Assembly (NCBI RefSeq): GCF_009193185.1
Contig: NZ_VUKF01000035.1
Location: 1 to 50,334 of the forward strand
Direction: 5' to 3'
DNA length: 50,334 bases
Source: Georgenia thermotolerans
GTDB lineage: Bacteria > Actinomycetota > Actinomycetes > Actinomycetales > Actinomycetaceae
Part shown: positions 1,889-14,995 of the stretch, one piece after another
Layout of the letters: each line of letters starts with the position of its first letter
Position numbering within the stretch: the stretch's first letter is position 1
Notes under the pieces: model-generated
The model's input: only the letters and a program-made list of their open reading frames with translations
Databases searched by the model: none
What the model was told of the DNA's origin: nothing
Position numbers and translations under genes: made by a program

Positions 1889-3372
1889 TCCCGGCTCCTC
1901 AGCTCTCGTGCCGCGCGGGCGAACGCCTCGCCCCGCTCGGCGTAGCTGCGGAACTGGTCCATCGACGCGCACGCCGGGGCCAGCAGCACGGTGTCGCCGG
2001 GTTGGGCGAGCCGGGCCGCCTCGGCGACGGCCGTCGGCATCACCCGATCATCGTCGGCGTCGACCTCGATCACGGGGACGTCGGCCGCGTGTCGCGCCAG
2101 CGCCGAGCGCAGCGGCTCGCGGTCCTTGCCGATGAGGACGACGGCGCGCAGGTGCTCGCGCTGCTCGGCCACGAGGGCGTCGAAGCGGGCGCCCTTGGCC
2201 AGCCCGCCGGCGACCCACACGCACGTCCCGGGCGCCACCGCGCGCAGCGAGGCGGCGGCGGCGTGGGCGTTGGTGGCCTTGGAGTCGTCGACGTAGGCCA
2301 CGCCGTCGACCTCTGCGACGCGCTCGATGCGGTGCGCCCCGGCGGGGAAGTCGCGCAGCCCCTGGCGCACGTGCGCCGGGTGCACGCCGTGGGCGCGGGC
2401 CAGCGCGGCGGCGGCCAGGGCGTTGGCGACCACGTGGCGCGGCACCCCGGCCCCGGCGGGGGCGAGGTGGGCGAGGTCGTCGAGGGTGGCCAGCTCGCCG
2501 GCGCCGCCGCGGTGGCGCTCGGGGACGAAGGCCCGGTCGACCAGCAGGTCCTCGACCACCCCGACCTGCCCCACCGCGGGCGTGCCGAGGGTGAAGCCGA
2601 CGGCGCGGGCGCCCTCGACGACGTCGGCCTCCTCGACCATGTGCCGGGTCTGCGGATCGGCCTCGTTGTACACGCACGCCACCCGGGTGCGCTCGTAGAC
2701 GCGGGCCTTGTCCGCCCGGTAGGCCTCGTAGGAGCCGTGCCAGTCGATGTGGTCCGGCGCGACGTTGAGGCAGGCGCTGGCCTCGGGCGAGACGGTGTGG
2801 GTGGAGTGCAGCTGGAAGCTCGACAGCTCCACGGCCAGCACGTCCGGGGCCTCCTCGCCGCGGCGGGTGGCCACGCGCACGATGGGCGTGCCGACGTTGC
2901 CCACCTCGACGGCGCGCTCGCCGGCGGCGGTGAGGATCGAGGCGAGCATGCCCACCGTGGTGGTCTTGCCGTTGGTGCCGGTCAGGGTCAGCCAGGGGGC
3001 GCGGGTGCCGTCGGGGCGCGGGGCCTGCAGCCGCCAGGCGAGCTCGACCTCGCTCCACACGGGCACCCCGGCCGCCGCCGCGCGGGTCAGCAGCGGCGAG
3101 ACGGCCGGGATGCCGGGCGAGACCACGACGACGTCCGGGCGGGCGGCCAGCACGGCGTCGGCCAGCTCGGTGGGGTCGGGGGCGGCGCGCAGCGCGGCGC
3201 GGTCGGGCACCTCGCCGCTGTCGCGGGCGGCGTCCAGGGCGGCGGGGGCCGCGTCGTAGCCGGCCAGCCGGGCGCCGGTGCCGCCCAGGGCCTCCAGGGC
3301 CGCGCGCCCGGAGGTGCCCAGGCCGACGACGGCGACCCGGGCGCCGTCGAGATCCGTGCGCTGCTCGCTCAT
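1885..3372 (-). CDS. murD: MurD, UDP-MurNAc-L-alanine:D-glutamate ligase
   Basis: Cytoplasmic ATP-dependent ligase that adds D-glutamate to UDP-MurNAc-L-Ala. The 495-residue product starts [19 protein letters not shown] with an N-terminal Rossmann-like loop GLGTSG. The Mur ligase P-loop TGTNGKTTT follows the first domain, and the C-terminal domain has [17 protein letters not shown], typical of MurD. The ATG overlaps the mraY stop by 4 bases (ATGA), which decides the start over a much longer in-frame extension into mraY. Length is slightly above the usual ~450, because of actinobacterial insertions. Part of the coupled dcw transcript. Confidence 0.96.
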
Positions 3373-9317: not shown

Positions 9318-9711
9318 CCCGCCTCCCCGCCTCCGAGCAGCGCGCCGTCGGCGAGGCGGATGAAGCGGAGGTGCTCGGCGGGCACCATGCCCAGCTCGGT
9401 GGCCCGGCGCTGCAGCGTGGCCGGCGAGCCGGTCTCCTCCACCTGGGCGCGCAGGGACGCCTCGGCCTCGTCGAGCTTGGTCAGCGCCACCTGCTGGTCG
9501 TGGATCTCGTACGCCGTCGCCGCCATGTGGGTGTTGAGCAGCAGCGCCACCAGCAGCGACGCGGTCAGGATGGCGGTGCACAGCAGCAGGTAGGGCACGA
9601 GGGAGCGGGCCGGCCGCGGGCTGGCGACGACGGCGAGGCGGGGGCGCCACGCCGGTGCCGGGCGCGGCGCCGACGCGGTGGTGGTTCTCGGGGCGCGGGC
9701 GGGCGCGGCGC

Positions 9712-9715
<4 letters not shown>
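9314..9715 (-). CDS. FtsL-like septum protein
   Basis: Small bitopic protein of 133 residues between rsmH and ftsI, the position of ftsL in other dcw clusters. It has a basic, proline/alanine-rich cytoplasmic segment (about 1-38), one strong membrane helix ([20 protein letters not shown], about 38-57), then a charged helix [23 protein letters not shown] that can form a coiled coil, and the pattern [14 protein letters not shown] seen in FtsL/FtsB-type proteins. Family members are poorly conserved in sequence, so the call rests on topology and position. It would bridge FtsQ/FtsB-type proteins to FtsWI at the septum. ATG overlaps the rsmH stop by 4 bases. Confidence 0.82.
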
Positions 9716-10737
<1,022 letters not shown>

Positions 10738-10923
10738 GGGGTCTTCTCTCCTGGTCCGCGGGGGGCGATAAACGGGGCGGGCCGGCCGCCGCCCGGCCAG
10801 GACTCCCTCCGCCTGCTCTGGCGCCGGGGAAGTGCGTCAGAGTCGCGGTGAGAGACCTCGTCGTGCGGGGGTCGGTCGGTGGTGCGGTGGTCGGTGATGG
10901 GTCGGGGAGCCGGCGGGAGCGGT
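10738..10923 (-). ncRNA. mraZ-rsmH leader segment, candidate structured RNA (mraW-type)
   Basis: The 186 bases between mraZ and rsmH hold no gene. On the transcribed strand, bases 10833-10802 can fold into a hairpin: ACTTCC pairs with GGGAGT, and an inner CGCC closes on GGCG over an AGAGCA loop, with an internal CCGG bulge. An alternative pairing of GACTC (10840-10844) with GAGTC (10801-10805) competes with it. A structured 'mraW' RNA motif has been described in this position in actinomycetes; I recall the location but cannot confirm a match to its consensus. No -10 element is convincing here, so the segment is probably part of the mraZ transcript. Confidence 0.35.
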
Positions 10924-11355
10924 TCAGAAGAGGCCGGGGACCACCTCCTCGGCGGTCTCGGCGAAGGCCTCCTCCTGCTCGGCCAGGTAGGTCTGCCAGG
11001 CGATCGCGTCCCAGATCTCGATGCGGGCCCCGGCGCCGATGACGGCGAGGTCGCGGTCGAGGCCGGCGTACTGGCGCAGGTTGGCCGGGATGGTGACGCG
11101 TCCCTGCTTGTCCGGCACCTCGTCGCTGGCGCCGGAGAGGAAGACGCGCAGGTAGTCCCGTGCCTGCTTGCTGGTGACGGGCGCCTGGCGCAGTCGGTCG
11201 TGCATGTTCTCGAACTCGGCGGCCGGGAAGGCGTACAGGCAGCGCTCCTGGCCGCGGGTGAGGACGAGGCCGGGGGCGAGCTGCTCGCGGAACTTGGCGG
11301 GGAGGATGAGTCGCCCCTTGTCGTCAAGACGTGGCTCATACGTCCCCAGGAACAC
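10924..11355 (-). CDS. mraZ: MraZ, DNA-binding regulator of the dcw cluster
   Basis: Nucleoid-associated transcription factor of 143 residues that forms rings of SpoVT/AbrB-like folds and autoregulates the division cluster in E. coli. Two tandem half-domains are visible, [14 protein letters not shown] (about 11-24) and [13 protein letters not shown] (about 82-94), each carrying the conserved D-x-x-GR-x-x-(I/L)P signature; the region after [10 protein letters not shown] matches the family start. The start is GTG at 11355, 7 bases after a strong AGGAGG. Its target would be the TGGNG boxes in the adjacent 646-base upstream region. Confidence 0.96.
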
Positions 11356-11394
11356 ACTGGCACCTCCTCCCTTGCGCCAAACCGGTTCCCCCCC

Positions 11395-11415
11395 GTGCGC
11401 CCCACATTACTCCAC
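11395..11415 (-). promoter_or_regulatory. Proximal MraZ-type double box
   Basis: The minus strand reads GTGGAGTAATGTGGGG and continues CGCAC. The two TGG(A/G)G cores are exactly 10 bases apart, the spacing known for E. coli MraZ boxes (TGGGN repeats). The site covers the mraZ -10. An inverted partner lies at 11488-11508. Confidence 0.6.
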
Positions 11416-11431
11416 TTCCCTCCCCCAGCAA
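11404..11431 (-). promoter_or_regulatory. mraZ promoter
   Basis: On the minus strand, TTGCTG (11431-11426) is followed by a 16-base spacer and TAATGT (11409-11404), a good fit to the TTGACA / TANNNT actinobacterial vegetative pattern. Transcription would begin near 11397 and leave a leader of about 40 bases to the GTG at 11355. The -10 lies inside the proximal TGGNG double box, so a bound MraZ would block it. Confidence 0.6.
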
Positions 11432-11487
11432 TGCGAAATGGGGCGCGCTTGTCCGTCACAACCCGGTAAACCCGCAGGTCGGTGCGG

Positions 11488-11508
11488 TTGGAGCGGAGTG
11501 GGGCGCAC
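11488..11508 (+). promoter_or_regulatory. Distal inverted MraZ-type double box
   Basis: The plus strand reads TTGGAGCGGAGTGGGG and continues CGCAC: again TGGAG and TGGGG with a 10-base period. It matches the proximal site at 16 of 21 positions in inverted orientation, and the 11-mer GTGGGGCGCAC is identical in both. The two sites face each other across about 70 bases upstream of the promoter, an arrangement that could support looping. Confidence 0.5.
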
Positions 11509-11645
11509 CGGTCCGGCGGCGCCGAGCGGGCGCCCAGGTAAACCACGGCAGGGGTCCGCTGAACCCATGGAGACGCGGTTTTCGGCGAATTAGCGCCGTT
11601 TTATGAGGGGGTATTGGGGCGCGGGCGGGCAGGAGCCCGGGCGCG

Positions 11646-11914
11646 TGGAGCGAAGTGGAGGAGGGCGTGGTCCTCGACCCGGTGAGGGGTGGGCGAGGCG
11701 TGGAGGGGGCCCGTCGACACGCCGTTGCGGCGCGGGGAGGACGGTGGAGGGGCTCGTCGGGGCCTGGACGCCTGCCGGGTGGAGGACGGTGGAGGGCCCC
11801 GCTCAGCCCGTGACGCCCGCCGCGTGGAGGACGGTGGAGGGCCCCGCGCGGGCCGCGACGCCCACCCGGTGGAGGACGGTGGAGGGACCGGCGAGCGATC
11901 GGCGCCACCGATGC
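11646..11914 (+). repeat. Tandem array of six ~45-base units with paired TGG boxes
   Basis: Units begin at 11646, 11690, 11735, 11780, 11825 and 11870. The last four starts are exactly 45 bases apart and the first two are 44-45. Each unit opens with two boxes of the form TGGAGG or a one-base variant. Box pairs are 10 bases apart in five units (11646/11656, 11735/11745, 11780/11790, 11825/11835, 11870/11880) and 11 in one (11690/11701). The core TGGAGGACGGTGGAGGG is identical in the units at 11780, 11825 and 11870, and a GACGCC near unit position 33 is shared by three. The 10-base repetition of TGG cores is that expected of MraZ sites. The repeats are adjacent and lack unique spacers or a dyad, so this is not CRISPR. 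Confidence 0.85.
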
Positions 11915-11936
11915 CGGGCCGTGCCAGGAATGCCGA

Positions 11937-11962
11937 CAGCCCACGGCATGGGCCGTGGGCTG
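11937..11962 (-). terminator. Hairpin after DUF3040 gene
   Basis: Perfect 11-base stem CAGCCCACGGC / GCCGTGGGCTG with an ATGG loop, 40 bases beyond the DUF3040 stop on its strand. No T-run follows. It could equally insulate the repeat array from DUF3040 transcription. Confidence 0.55.
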
Positions 11963-11976
11963 CTGGTGATCAGGAC

Positions 11977-11997
11977 GCGCGCACCAAGGGTGCGCGC
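11977..11997 (-). terminator. Hairpin directly after the DUF3040 stop
   Basis: Perfect 9-base stem GCGCGCACC / GGTGCGCGC with an AAG loop, 4 bases after the DUF3040 stop codon. With the hairpin at 11937-11962 it forms a tandem terminator without T-tracts, common in high-GC actinobacteria. Confidence 0.6.
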
Positions 11998-12001
11998 CGG
12001 T

Positions 12002-12385
12002 CTAGCGGCCGCGCTCCTCGTTGCGCCGGTCCCAGCGGTCCTCCTGGCGCTGCATGAAGCCGCCGAAGGAGGAGCTGGAGGTGGCCGGTCCCCCGGTGCG
12101 CTTGCCGCGGCCACGCGCCTTCGCCGTGCCTCGCGGCCCGCTGATCGCGAGCATCACGCCCGCCAGCATGGCCAGGAACCCGAGCACCCCGAGCCAGACG
12201 TAGCCGGTGGCCACGCCGCCCACCAGCCCGCCGAGCCCGAGCAGGAAGAGCAGGACTCCCAGGCTGAGCCGGCGCACGTCCGGACGCGGCTTGTCCGCCA
12301 GTGTGTTGGCGAGCCGGGGGTCGTCAGAACGCAGCTGCTGCTCCATCTGCTGGAGCATGCGCTGCTCGTACTCCGAGAGAGGCAT
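12002..12385 (-). CDS. DUF3040 small membrane protein
   Basis: A 127-residue protein of unknown function, conserved in actinobacteria near dinB and mraZ. The N-terminus MPLSEYEQRMLQQMEQQL and the following LRSDDPRLA are the DUF3040 signature. Two hydrophobic segments follow (LSLGVLLFLLGLGGLVGG and VWLGVLGFLAMLAGVMLAI), then a basic, serine-rich cytoplasmic tail. The ATG at 12385 was preferred over the one at 12400, because GGAGGT sits just before the second ATG and the family begins at MPLSE. The short helical N-terminus could be a small-protein interaction module; no enzymatic motif is visible. Confidence 0.88.
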   Translation of the reverse strand: MPLSEYEQRMLQQMEQQLRSDDPRLANTLADKPRPDVRRLSLGVLLFLLGLGGLVGGVATGYVWLGVLGFLAMLAGVMLAISGPRGTAKARGRGKRTGGPATSSSSFGGFMQRQEDRWDRRNEERGR

Positions 12386-12437
12386 CGGACCTCCAGTCAT
12401 CCCGCCAACCCGTCGCCGATGAGGTGACGCTTCGACA

Positions 12438-13688
12438 TCAGGATAGGTCCCGGGAGGCGCCCGGGAAAGCCGAACCTCGTGTGGTGTCGATCAGTGACGC
12501 GGGTCGCAGCACCGCGGATCCGAACCTCGCCCGCACGCCGTCCATCGCGCGCTCGGCCTTGGCGCGGTGGGGATCCTCGTCGAGCGTCGCCTGCACCCCG
12601 GCGCCGGCGCCGACGAGCCGCTCGGCCCGCACCCCGAGGAGGCGGACGCCGTCGGCCGCGATCGTCACACCCGCGAGGAGCTCGCGCGCGGCCGTGACGA
12701 TGTCATGCGCCAGGTCGGTCGGGGCGGGCAGCGTCCGCGACCGCGTCAGCGTGGTGAAGTCGGCCATGCGGACCTTGATGGACACGGTGGCCGTGAGCAT
12801 GCCGTCGGCCCGCAGCCGGGCGCCGCACTGGTGCGCCTGGTCGAGCAGGACCCGCTCGAGCACCGCCCGGTCGGTCACGTCCTCGGCGAAGGTGGTCTCG
12901 GTGCCGACCGACTTCTCCACCCGGCCGGGGGCCACGCGCCGGGGGTCGATGCCCCAGGCGAGCTCGTGCAGCCGCTGTCCGGCGGCCACCCCGAGCATGC
13001 GGTGCAGCGCCGGCAGCGGGGTGGCGGCGACGTCGGCCACCGTGTCGAGGCCGTGCCGCTCGAGCACGGCGCGGGTCTTCTCCCCCACCCCCCACAGCGC
13101 CCCGGCCGGCAGGGAGTGCAGGAAGGGCACCGTCGCCGCGAGCGGGACGAGCAGCAGGCCGTCCGGCTTGGCGTGGGCCGAGGCGAGCTTGGCCACGTGC
13201 TTGGTGCCGGCGACGCCCACCGACGCCGGCACGCCGGTGCGGGCGCGGACCTCGCGCCGGACCCACCGGGCGATGGTCAGCGGGGACCCCATCCGCCGCA
13301 CCGCCCCGGCGACGTCGAGGAACGCCTCGTCGATGCTGACCTGCTCCATCACCGGGGTCACCTCCCCCAGCACCGCCATGACCTCGCGGGAGACCTCGGC
13401 GTAGCGGCCGTGGCGGCCGGGGAGGAAGACCCCCTGCGGGCACAGCAGCCGGGCCCGGCTGACCGGCATCGCCGAGTGCACGCCGAAGGCGCGGGCCTCG
13501 TAGCTCGCGGCGCTGACGACGCCGCGGTGCTGCCCGCCCACGATCACCGGCCGGCCGCGCAGCTCGGGGCGGTCGAGCAGCTCGACCGAGGCGAAGAAGG
13601 CGTCCATGTCGACGTGGAGGATCGTGCAGCCGCTGTCGTCCTCGCCCCACGACCGGCGGGCGGCAGCGCTGCGTGGGGCTCGGCTCAT
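12438..13688 (-). CDS. dinB: DNA polymerase IV (Y family)
   Basis: Translesion DNA polymerase of 416 residues. The catalytic palm motifs are present: ILHVDMDAFFASVE near residues 23-36 and VSIDEAFLDV with the metal-binding acidic pair about residue 120. A helix-hairpin-helix region (GALWGVGEKTRAVLERHGLDTVADVA) and the little-finger domain follow. The ATG at 13688 has GGAGGAG just upstream; the in-frame ATG at 13739 has none and would overlap the divergent gene. No LexA box was found at its promoter, so SOS induction is not supported here. Confidence 0.93.
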   Translation of the reverse strand: MSRAPRSAAARRSWGEDDSGCTILHVDMDAFFASVELLDRPELRGRPVIVGGQHRGVVSAASYEARAFGVHSAMPVSRARLLCPQGVFLPGRHGRYAEVSREVMAVLGEVTPVMEQVSIDEAFLDVAGAVRRMGSPLTIARWVRREVRARTGVPASVGVAGTKHVAKLASAHAKPDGLLLVPLAATVPFLHSLPAGALWGVGEKTRAVLERHGLDTVADVAATPLPALHRMLGVAAGQRLHELAWGIDPRRVAPGRVEKSVGTETTFAEDVTDRAVLERVLLDQAHQCGARLRADGMLTATVSIKVRMADFTTLTRSRTLPAPTDLAHDIVTAARELLAGVTIAADGVRLLGVRAERLVGAGAGVQATLDEDPHRAKAERAMDGVRARFGSAVLRPASLIDTTRGSAFPGASRDLS

Positions 13689-13720
13689 GTCTCCTCCCCG
13701 TCTCGGCGCCGGCCCCAGGC

Positions 13721-13726
13721 TAACGT
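13721..13726 (+). promoter_or_regulatory. -10 element TAACGT of a leaderless start
   Basis: TAACGT ends 6 bases before the GTG at 13733. There is no ribosome binding site, so the mRNA probably begins at the start codon. Confidence 0.5.
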
Positions 13727-13732
13727 GGCGGG

Positions 13733-14647
13733 GTGACACCCCGCCGTGGGCGCCCGTCCCGCCGCGGCGCCGAACCGCTCCCCACCGAGCCCGTCCCCAC
13801 CTCCCTCGGCACGGCGAGCCTGCGCCGCGAGCCGGGGGCCCCGCACCAGGTGACGCTGCTGCTCGACGGCACCGAGAGCTCCTTCCTCGACCTCGACGAC
13901 CCCGCCCACCTCGAGTTCGAGTACATGCAGCAGATGGTCGTCGTCCTCGACGCCGCCCGGCCGGCCGGGCCCGTGCGCGCCCTGCACCTGGGCGCGGCCG
14001 GGTGCGCGCTGCCCCGGGCGCTGGAGGCGCACCGGCCCGGGTCGACCCAGCTCGCCGTCGAGCTCGACGAGGTGCTGGCGCGGCTGGTGCGCGAGTGGTT
14101 CGACCTGCCGCGCGCGCCGCGGCTGCGCATCCGCACCGGTGACGCCCGCGCCGTCACGGCGGGCCTGCGCGACGGCGCCTGGGAGGTGGTGGTGCGCGAC
14201 GTCTTCGCGGCCGGCCTCGTGCCGGCGCACGTGCGCACCCTGGAGGCGGCCCGGGAGGTGCACCGGGTGCTCGCCCCGGGCGGGCTCTACCTCGTCAACC
14301 TCACCGACCACCCGCCGCTGCCGCGGGCCAAGGCCGAGATTGCCGCGCTGCGGGAGGTCTTCGCCGACGTCGCGCTGGTGGCCGACCCCGCGATCCTGCG
14401 CGGGCGTCGCTACGGCAACCTCGTGCTGGCGGCCTCGGACGCCCCGCTGCCGGTGGACGCGATCGAGCGGGGGCTGCGCCGCCTGCCGCTGCCCGTCCGG
14501 CTCGTCCACGGCGAGGAGCTGACGGCGCTGCGCGGCACCGCCCGACCGGAGCGGGACCCGCCCACGTCCACCGGGCCCCCCGCGGCCCCGGGGACGTCCG
14601 CACCCACCGGGACGCCGGACGCCGGCGAGGACCGGGCGCCGTCGTAG
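13733..14647 (+). CDS. Spermidine synthase-like methyltransferase-fold protein
   Basis: A 304-residue protein with a spermidine synthase/methyltransferase-type Rossmann domain. After a basic leader comes a beta-strand domain (HQVTLLLDGTESSFLDLDDP and HLEFEYMQQMVVVLDAA), then the nucleotide-loop HLGAAGCALPRALEAH, STQLAVELDEVL with the acidic residue that would bind the ribose, and VVVRDVFAAGLVPAHVRT. The spermidine synthase GGGDG loop is degenerate (GAAGC), so polyamine synthesis is doubtful; such fused-family proteins are frequent and uncharacterised in actinobacteria. The Pro/Thr-rich C-terminal 35 residues look disordered. Divergent from dinB with only 44 bases between starts. Confidence 0.72.
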   Translation: MTPRRGRPSRRGAEPLPTEPVPTSLGTASLRREPGAPHQVTLLLDGTESSFLDLDDPAHLEFEYMQQMVVVLDAARPAGPVRALHLGAAGCALPRALEAHRPGSTQLAVELDEVLARLVREWFDLPRAPRLRIRTGDARAVTAGLRDGAWEVVVRDVFAAGLVPAHVRTLEAAREVHRVLAPGGLYLVNLTDHPPLPRAKAEIAALREVFADVALVADPAILRGRRYGNLVLAASDAPLPVDAIERGLRRLPLPVRLVHGEELTALRGTARPERDPPTSTGPPAAPGTSAPTGTPDAGEDRAPS

Positions 14648-14666: not shown

Positions 14667-14726
14667 GCGTCACGCCTGCCGCCACCGCGGCGGGTCGCGT
14701 CACGCCTGCCGCCACCGCGGCGGGTC
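14667..14726 (+). repeat. Two exact tandem copies of a 30-base unit
   Basis: The 30 bases 14667-14696 are repeated without change at 14697-14726. Each begins GCGTCACGCC and ends GCGGCGGGTC. The copies sit between the 3' end of the spermidine synthase-like gene and the shared terminator. The unit contains an internal CCGCCACCGCGGCGG near-palindrome, so each copy could form a small stem. Confidence 0.9.
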
Positions 14727-14788: not shown

Positions 14789-14995
14789 TCAGATGGCGCG
14801 GACGTTCTCCGCCTGGGGGCCCTTGGGGCCCTGGGTGATCTCGAACTCCACGCGCTGGGCGTCCTCGAGCGAGCGGTAACCGTCGGCCTGGATCGCTGAG
14901 TAGTGGACGAACACGTCGGGGGCGTTGCCCCCGTCCTGCTCGATGAAGCCGTAGCCCTTCTCAGCGTTGAACCACTTCACGGTTCCCTGTGCCAT
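14789..14995 (-). CDS. Cold-shock protein (CspA family)
   Basis: Single-domain OB-fold RNA chaperone of 68 residues that binds single-stranded nucleic acids. The start [20 protein letters not shown] contains RNP1 (KGYGFIEQ), and DVFVHYSAI is RNP2; the sequence matches actinobacterial CspA-type proteins almost throughout. A GGAAGGA ribosome binding site precedes the ATG by about 9 bases. The transcript has a potential hairpin leader. Confidence 0.96.

Follow-up and report, generated by a model that had tools for sequence, protein, structure and literature searches.

Inverted box pairs upstream of mraZ in Georgenia and its relatives: candidate auxiliary operators of MraZ at helically phased distances

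MraZ is a widely conserved regulator of bacterial division, and why it forms rings is, to our knowledge, an open question. Its sites in distant bacteria are GTG repeats with a 10-nt period, bound by an octameric toroid, and in the descriptions that these two sources give of them they consist of a few boxes at the promoter, (AAAGTGKN3)3 in Mollicutes and four repeats in Burkholderia (PMC5282649, PMC7761207). E. coli K-12 carries TGGG at -43, -33 and -23 upstream of mraZ, and its 601-bp gap upstream of the gene contains no CCCA and no inverted pairs. Auxiliary operators that act through DNA loops are familiar from lac-type systems, with ara and gal as further cases. For loops in living E. coli, the helical repeat has been put at 11 bp per turn (PMC8501960). 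Among the papers listed in a search of the open-licence literature, none reports distal inverted MraZ operators or MraZ looping; the repressor and its box are known, and it is the operator architecture that would be new.

The window analyzed here is a stretch of 50,334 nucleotides from Georgenia thermotolerans (contig NZ_VUKF01000035.1), which includes mraZ and its neighbours (Table 1). The mraZ product is a convincing MraZ: its match to PF02381 scores 130 bits and falls in two stretches, corresponding to two MraZ domains, the translation contains two copies (DDKGR and DKQGR) of the DxxxR motif that is the DNA-binding signature of MraZ, and four of the five sequences matched in the PDB are MraZ, the fifth being a weak and unrelated match. 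On the strand opposite mraZ, and 290-529 nt upstream of its start (11355, minus strand), lie six GTGGAG-like box pairs (11645-11884) at a unit pitch of 44-45 bp. An original prediction made from the letters alone had described such an array of paired boxes, shaped like MraZ operators, far upstream and on the other strand, with the two boxes 10 nt apart in five units and 11 nt apart in one, and this description is borne out by the sequence: all six units are present, box starts are 10 nt apart in five of them and 11 nt apart in the unit at 11689, and a 45-bp array at 11736-11886 is independently reported by TRF, with a score of 193, the top of 129 rows for the window. Two other elements had been overlooked, namely three sense boxes at the mraZ promoter and a degenerate inverted pair between promoter and array. 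As in the MraZ operators described for E. coli, Mollicutes and Burkholderia, the promoter boxes and five of the six array units are direct repeats of a GTG/TGG core with a 10-nt period, and those at 11400-11425 stand at the mraZ promoter itself; unlike those operators, which as published are in sense orientation and at the promoter, the present locus has inverted distal pairs in addition, and its array lies upstream of the promoter. Because both the promoter sense boxes and the near inverted pair are present, the array is best read as the distal part of a larger operator system at mraZ.

Table 1. Features of the mraZ region in the window. D is the distance from promoter box 1.
Feature	Position	Strand	Remarks
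mraZ coding sequence (143 aa), at the head of the dcw cluster	10924-11355	-	Pfam PF02381, E 3.3e-38
Promoter operator, three sense boxes, GGGGAG-ggaa-GTGGAG-taat-GTGGGG	11400-11425	-	Boxes 10 nt apart
-10-like TAATGT between promoter boxes 2 and 3	11404-11409	-	Assigned by eye
-35-like TTGCTG just before promoter box 1	11426-11431	-	Assigned by eye
Near inverted pair TTGGAGCGGAGTGGGG, first box degenerate	11488-11503	+	78 bp upstream of promoter box 1
Array unit 1 (far inverted pair) GTGGAGCGAAGTGGAG	11645-11660	+	D=235; identical at D=235 in G. ruanii (locus L032)
Array unit 2 GTGGGCGAGGCGTGGAG	11689-11705	+	Boxes 11 nt apart; D=280
Array unit 3 GGGGAGGACGGTGGAG	11734-11749	+	D=324
Array unit 4 GTGGAGGACGGTGGAG	11779-11794	+	D=369
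Array unit 5 GTGGAGGACGGTGGAG	11824-11839	+	D=414
Array unit 6 GTGGAGGACGGTGGAG	11869-11884	+	D=459
GC-rich hairpin between the DUF3040 gene and the array	11933-11966	-	Fold -28.4 kcal/mol, z -3.9
DUF3040 protein gene, upstream neighbour, same direction as mraZ	12002-12400	-	PF11239, E 1.9e-26

A consensus promoter scan gave no sigma-70 site at the mraZ promoter boxes. The hairpin in front of the array is possibly the end of the upstream transcript; it was not called by a terminator scan, in which the sole listed site is on the plus strand at 11583-11598. Another cis element of the actinobacterial mraZ-rsmH region, the mraW RNA motif (RF01746), is an RNA hairpin between these two genes and unrelated to the array; a match to it lies between mraZ and rsmH at 10779-10874 on the minus strand (43.2 bits, gathering score 50). 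An RNA element was considered as an explanation of the array and rejected: a search of 9500-14000 gave this sub-threshold match and a miRNA match at chance level, and the array lies upstream of the inferred promoter.

The pattern GTGGAG-N4-GTGGAG occurs exactly four times in the 4.64-Mb Georgenia genome, each time inside the array. When one mismatch is allowed, there are 36 matches genome-wide as against 57 for the same pattern read backward, so the looser matches are common by chance. Between -620 and -110 the window contains five strict 10-nt inverted pairs, made up of four array units and the near pair, whereas 5000 dinucleotide shuffles of the same region give 0.17 on average and never more than 4. 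Unit 1 occupies a far position that is common among relatives; G. ruanii also has pairs at D 278 and 322, and none in its upstream region at D 369, 414 or 459. Elsewhere in the genus, one genome (G002) has 15 inverted pairs at an exact 24-bp pitch (C4:652752-653103, locus L037), the longest such array seen, and others have five pairs at 24 bp (G001), three at 48 bp (G006) and four at 46-56 bp (G004). As pitch and copy number differ in this way between Georgenia, the array is a lineage-level amplification of the far operator, in which the 10-nt box spacing is kept and pitch and linkers vary.

For a wider comparison, two sets of mraZ upstream regions were assembled. The first consists of 104 regions (110 loci, comprising 30 loci and the best 80 of 542 relatives, minus six duplicates); it leans to MraZ proteins resembling that of the window, and it counts L120, a member whose upstream DNA is only 119 nt long, too short for a distal pair to be seen. 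The first survey of relatives covered 58 mraZ places; 30 of them gave loci of the first set, and a further 15 were retrieved afterwards. The 73 added regions (90 loci minus three that were too short, L165, L188 and L217, and minus 14 duplicates) divide into 19 from the window's order and 54 from its class, the latter chosen by hand, with one to four regions taken from each family out of the listed places of 174 genomes with mraZ, and supplemented with the 30 best matches of the search. The named records we take, from GTDB, to belong to the window's order, and the 104 and the 19 together are the 123 nearer relatives referred to below.

Sense GTGG pairs 10 nt apart and less than 130 nt from mraZ are nearly universal (103/104, 19/19 and 50/54 genomes). 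Inverted GTGG pairs at exactly 10 nt, between -700 and -110, are present in 77/104, 19/19 and 22/54 genomes, and at any other spacing from 4 to 30 nt in at most 22, 6 and 11 of them. When scored pairs are sought at D 60-330, inverted ones are found in 101 of the 123 nearer relatives and in 26 of the 54 other class members, where dinucleotide shuffles lead one to expect 5.1 and 1.5, and the same search for sense pairs finds them in 2/123 and 3/54; inverted boxes spaced by other distances of 6-16 nt occur in 6-32 of the 123, the most at 12 nt (32/123), with 13 nt in 23/123. The inverted modules stand at a near position, ~77 or 88 bp, and at a far position, mostly ~180-245 bp, and are almost never in sense orientation. 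At D 60-300, a strict pair is missing from 22 of the 123 nearer relatives; L120 is one of these, and so is every one of the four Rothia in the set. From 28 of the 54 class genomes it is missing at D 60-330. The original prediction had proposed a comparison of mraZ upstream regions from related genera as a check; across relatives the 10-nt box spacing turns out to be kept, with differing linkers and a pitch of 24, 45 or 46-56 bp.

Several observations tie the inverted boxes to those at the promoter. Logos were drawn from 70 near pairs and 69 far ones, all inverted, and give GTGGAGgGaaGTGGAG. Their spacer GGAA, which did not enter the scoring, is the spacer between promoter boxes 1 and 2, and there is no -10-like TAaa after the second box, so that the inverted pairs do not look like promoters. 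The fifth base of the box varies in parallel at the two places: in family f22 it is G in 23/24 promoter boxes 1-2 and in 36/40 inverted boxes, and among the 123 nearer relatives it is mostly A, in 216/328 promoter boxes and 227/362 inverted boxes. Across 128 genomes, the share of A at this base in promoter boxes correlates with that in inverted boxes (rho 0.49, p 3e-9, relatedness not removed). This co-variation suggests that promoter and inverted boxes co-evolve with one protein, and because 10-nt GTG repeats mark the MraZ sites of distant bacteria, MraZ is the natural candidate for the role.

The placement of the exact pairs points in the same direction. In 59 genomes there are 102 of them, and reading the pattern backward as a control gives 74 matches there; what is special is therefore their place rather than their total number. 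Within 1 kb upstream of mraZ lie 81, of which 40 are in sense orientation, all within 110 nt of the gene, and 41 are inverted, all beyond 110 nt (10 of these come from G002 and four from the window). The other 21 are elsewhere; five relatives contribute one each at 8.2-9.1 kb downstream of mraZ. That these five mark a further MraZ target was considered and rejected: the window's one-mismatch match at 3043-3058 (minus strand) reads WSEVE in a MurD-like frame, this copy of the box pair is likely a coding coincidence, and the five exact copies are probably coding too. In 12 of 12 genomes that have no mraZ, all of one genus (family f37) and hence representing one loss, no inverted pair is found in the 1.5 kb before rsmH; one stray sense pair occurs at -1357. 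We also note that G075, which has no PF02381 match, carries at C1:4226999-4227024, far from rsmH, three copies of GTGGAG that follow one another at 10-nt intervals and are separated by GGAA; these are possibly the operator of a diverged MraZ-like protein.

Taking the best strict pair at D 60-130, the near distances of 70 genomes fall into five clusters, 75-79 (31 genomes, and where the window's near pair also falls), 85-90 (28), 97-101 (6), 107-110 (3) and 119-120 bp (2), with none in between; the best period is 10.9 bp with R 0.80, or R 0.81 when one value is taken per genus (n=42, a genome without a genus name counting as its own genus). The far distances (D 131-300, n=69) have a period of 11.15 bp and R 0.45, which becomes 0.47 when each genus supplies a single value (n=45), and in neither case was the phasing matched in 2000 runs of a jitter null on unique genus-distance sets (n=54 for near and 67 for far). 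The difference between far and near distances is itself periodic (11.05 bp, R 0.62, n=38), as are the 19 pair distances from 12 genomes of family f22 (11.45 bp, R 0.79); over the class as a whole the phasing is weak (R 0.34, n=40, p about 0.009). Of 21 genome-spacing counts, 16 put neighbouring inverted pairs on a ladder of multiples of ~11.2 bp, at 22-24, 33-34, 45-46 or 56 bp; the values off the ladder are 19, 48 (twice) and 50 bp, and up to 70 bp there are no others. It had been proposed that a unit of 45 bp, taken as 4.3 turns, would cause successive pairs to rotate around the helix; the ladder, which agrees better with ~11.2 than with 10.5 bp per turn, speaks against this, as 45 bp is then about four turns in vivo.

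Relatedness inflates the raw p-values for phasing, and independent contrasts, which are the fairer test, lend it modest support. The near quantum underwent at least 13 changes along a tree of MraZ. At 10.5 bp the 25 near contrasts reach z 4.2, and at periods of 9.5, 12 and 13 bp they still reach 3.3-3.9; 16 of them are 4 bp or less, which is why other periods score nearly as high, and only nine inform on the period (9, 10, 10, 10, 11, 12, 18, 18 and 23 bp). For the far distances, 30 contrasts reach z 2.2-2.8 at periods of 11-11.5 bp and drop to 1.0 at 10.5 bp. One trivial origin of the quanta, a 10-bp slip within triple boxes, was rejected: such triple boxes exist (G. ruanii has them at D 78 and 88), but the centres of the first two quanta, ~77 and 88.5, lie more than 11 bp apart, which a slip by one box would not give.

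Our preferred reading, which we consider quite probable, is that the array consists of auxiliary MraZ operators, and that the promoter and an inverted upstream pair are joined over a phased loop that strengthens autorepression. MraZ, known from other bacteria to bind such repeats, would here bind direct repeats of about GTGGAG 10 bp apart; in the sequence, the three sense boxes cover the inferred -10 region and follow closely on the inferred -35. The inverted two-box modules upstream, which resemble promoter boxes 1-2 and recur near and far in quanta of ~11 bp, could then be held together with the promoter boxes by one ring-shaped MraZ assembly, or by two that touch, and the loop would make the autorepression of mraZ and of the dcw operon stronger. 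The far module is multiplied in Georgenia, from the three positions in common with G. ruanii to six in the window and 15 in G002, and the additional copies might supply more loop partners and more capacity for MraZ. Since a flexible loop could form with the pairs in either orientation, their near-constant inversion favours a rigid geometry, and repression may run through either a loop or a stiff assembly of MraZ side by side. The likeness to lac-type loops lies in distant operators at phased distances (R 0.80 near and 0.45 far) with a repeat near the 11 bp per turn given for living cells (PMC8501960); unlike those loops, this one would be formed by MraZ on asymmetric direct-repeat operators whose inversion is nearly obligatory, and we infer both the binding and the looping from sequence. 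The weak points in the window itself are the degenerate near pair and the one array unit with an 11-nt spacing. Whether, beyond this, some Georgenia have turned the upstream operator of a loop-repression architecture, built from direct-repeat operators and a ring protein, into long arrays is a proposition that we find evenly balanced.

Phased distances would also fit side-by-side binding in which MraZ on the promoter and on the inverted pairs forms a single wrapped nucleoprotein with its rings touching and no true loop, the phasing reflecting a need to stand on one face of the DNA. At 77-89 bp the near distances are short, face-to-face contacts would fit the phasing and the neighbour ladder (22-24, 33-34 and 45-46 bp), and a nearly invariable inversion fits a rigid assembly. 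The distances of far pairs from the promoter are phased too, however, and among the 69 genomes that have a far pair, 31 lack a strict near pair between it and the promoter; on the whole we think this arrangement rather unlikely. Much the same evidence bears on the suggestion, present in the original prediction, that the array titrates MraZ as a sponge that buffers the free protein, for which position and phase would be irrelevant. The 15 tightly pitched pairs of G002 and a copy number that varies between species are in keeping with a sponge, which nevertheless has no need of phased distances or of a single orientation, and two or more strict pairs are found in only 37 of the 104 relatives; we regard it as improbable. 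Control of an antisense or divergent promoter, also raised at the outset, has lost still more ground and is now hard to credit at all: the inverted boxes are indeed oriented as promoter boxes would be for transcription away from mraZ, but no divergent gene was seen in the region upstream of mraZ in the window, the near and far logos lack the TAaa noted above, and there is no consensus promoter-like site, in a scan that also misses the mraZ promoter.

It might be argued that the array is simply a product of recent replication slippage or duplication that has no function. Units 4-6 have the same 16-mer at an exact 45-bp pitch and are missing from G. ruanii, and to this extent the caution in the original prediction that the repeats could be strain-specific was justified, as these last three units look like recent tandem copies and slippage may hold for such extra copies only. 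It does not extend to the system as a whole, in which relatives with different linkers share the pair sequence and the 10-nt spacing, and which has no inverted counterpart before rsmH in the 12 genomes lacking mraZ; as a general account slippage is very improbable. We give equally little credence to the idea that the boxes are bound by a regulator other than MraZ. Binding of MtrA to the mraZ promoter has been reported for Dietzia (PMC9602371), but the 10-nt GTG repeats match the MraZ sites of other phyla, 81 of the 102 exact pairs lie at mraZ, and the 12 genomes lacking mraZ, all of one genus, have none inverted before rsmH.

Were auxiliary MraZ operators joined to the promoter in this way, conserved, inverted and phased operators would give a direct reason for a multivalent MraZ ring, and the question of the ring would become testable with short reporter constructs. 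The distances in 101 genomes could also be read as an evolutionary record of loop geometry, as they keep a repeat of ~11 bp, near that of loops in living E. coli.

Two observations lie outside these counts. In the window, a perfect 30-bp tandem duplication (two copies, 100% match) at 14667-14726 directly precedes a small ORF (14789-14995) that resembles a cold-shock protein, a name given by eye. At the level of the phylum, inspection of loci L244-L269 found full inverted pairs in L253, L254, L257, L258 and L262, which belong to the same phylum and lie outside the class; in L262 the inverted boxes read GTGGCG, as does one promoter box of that genome.
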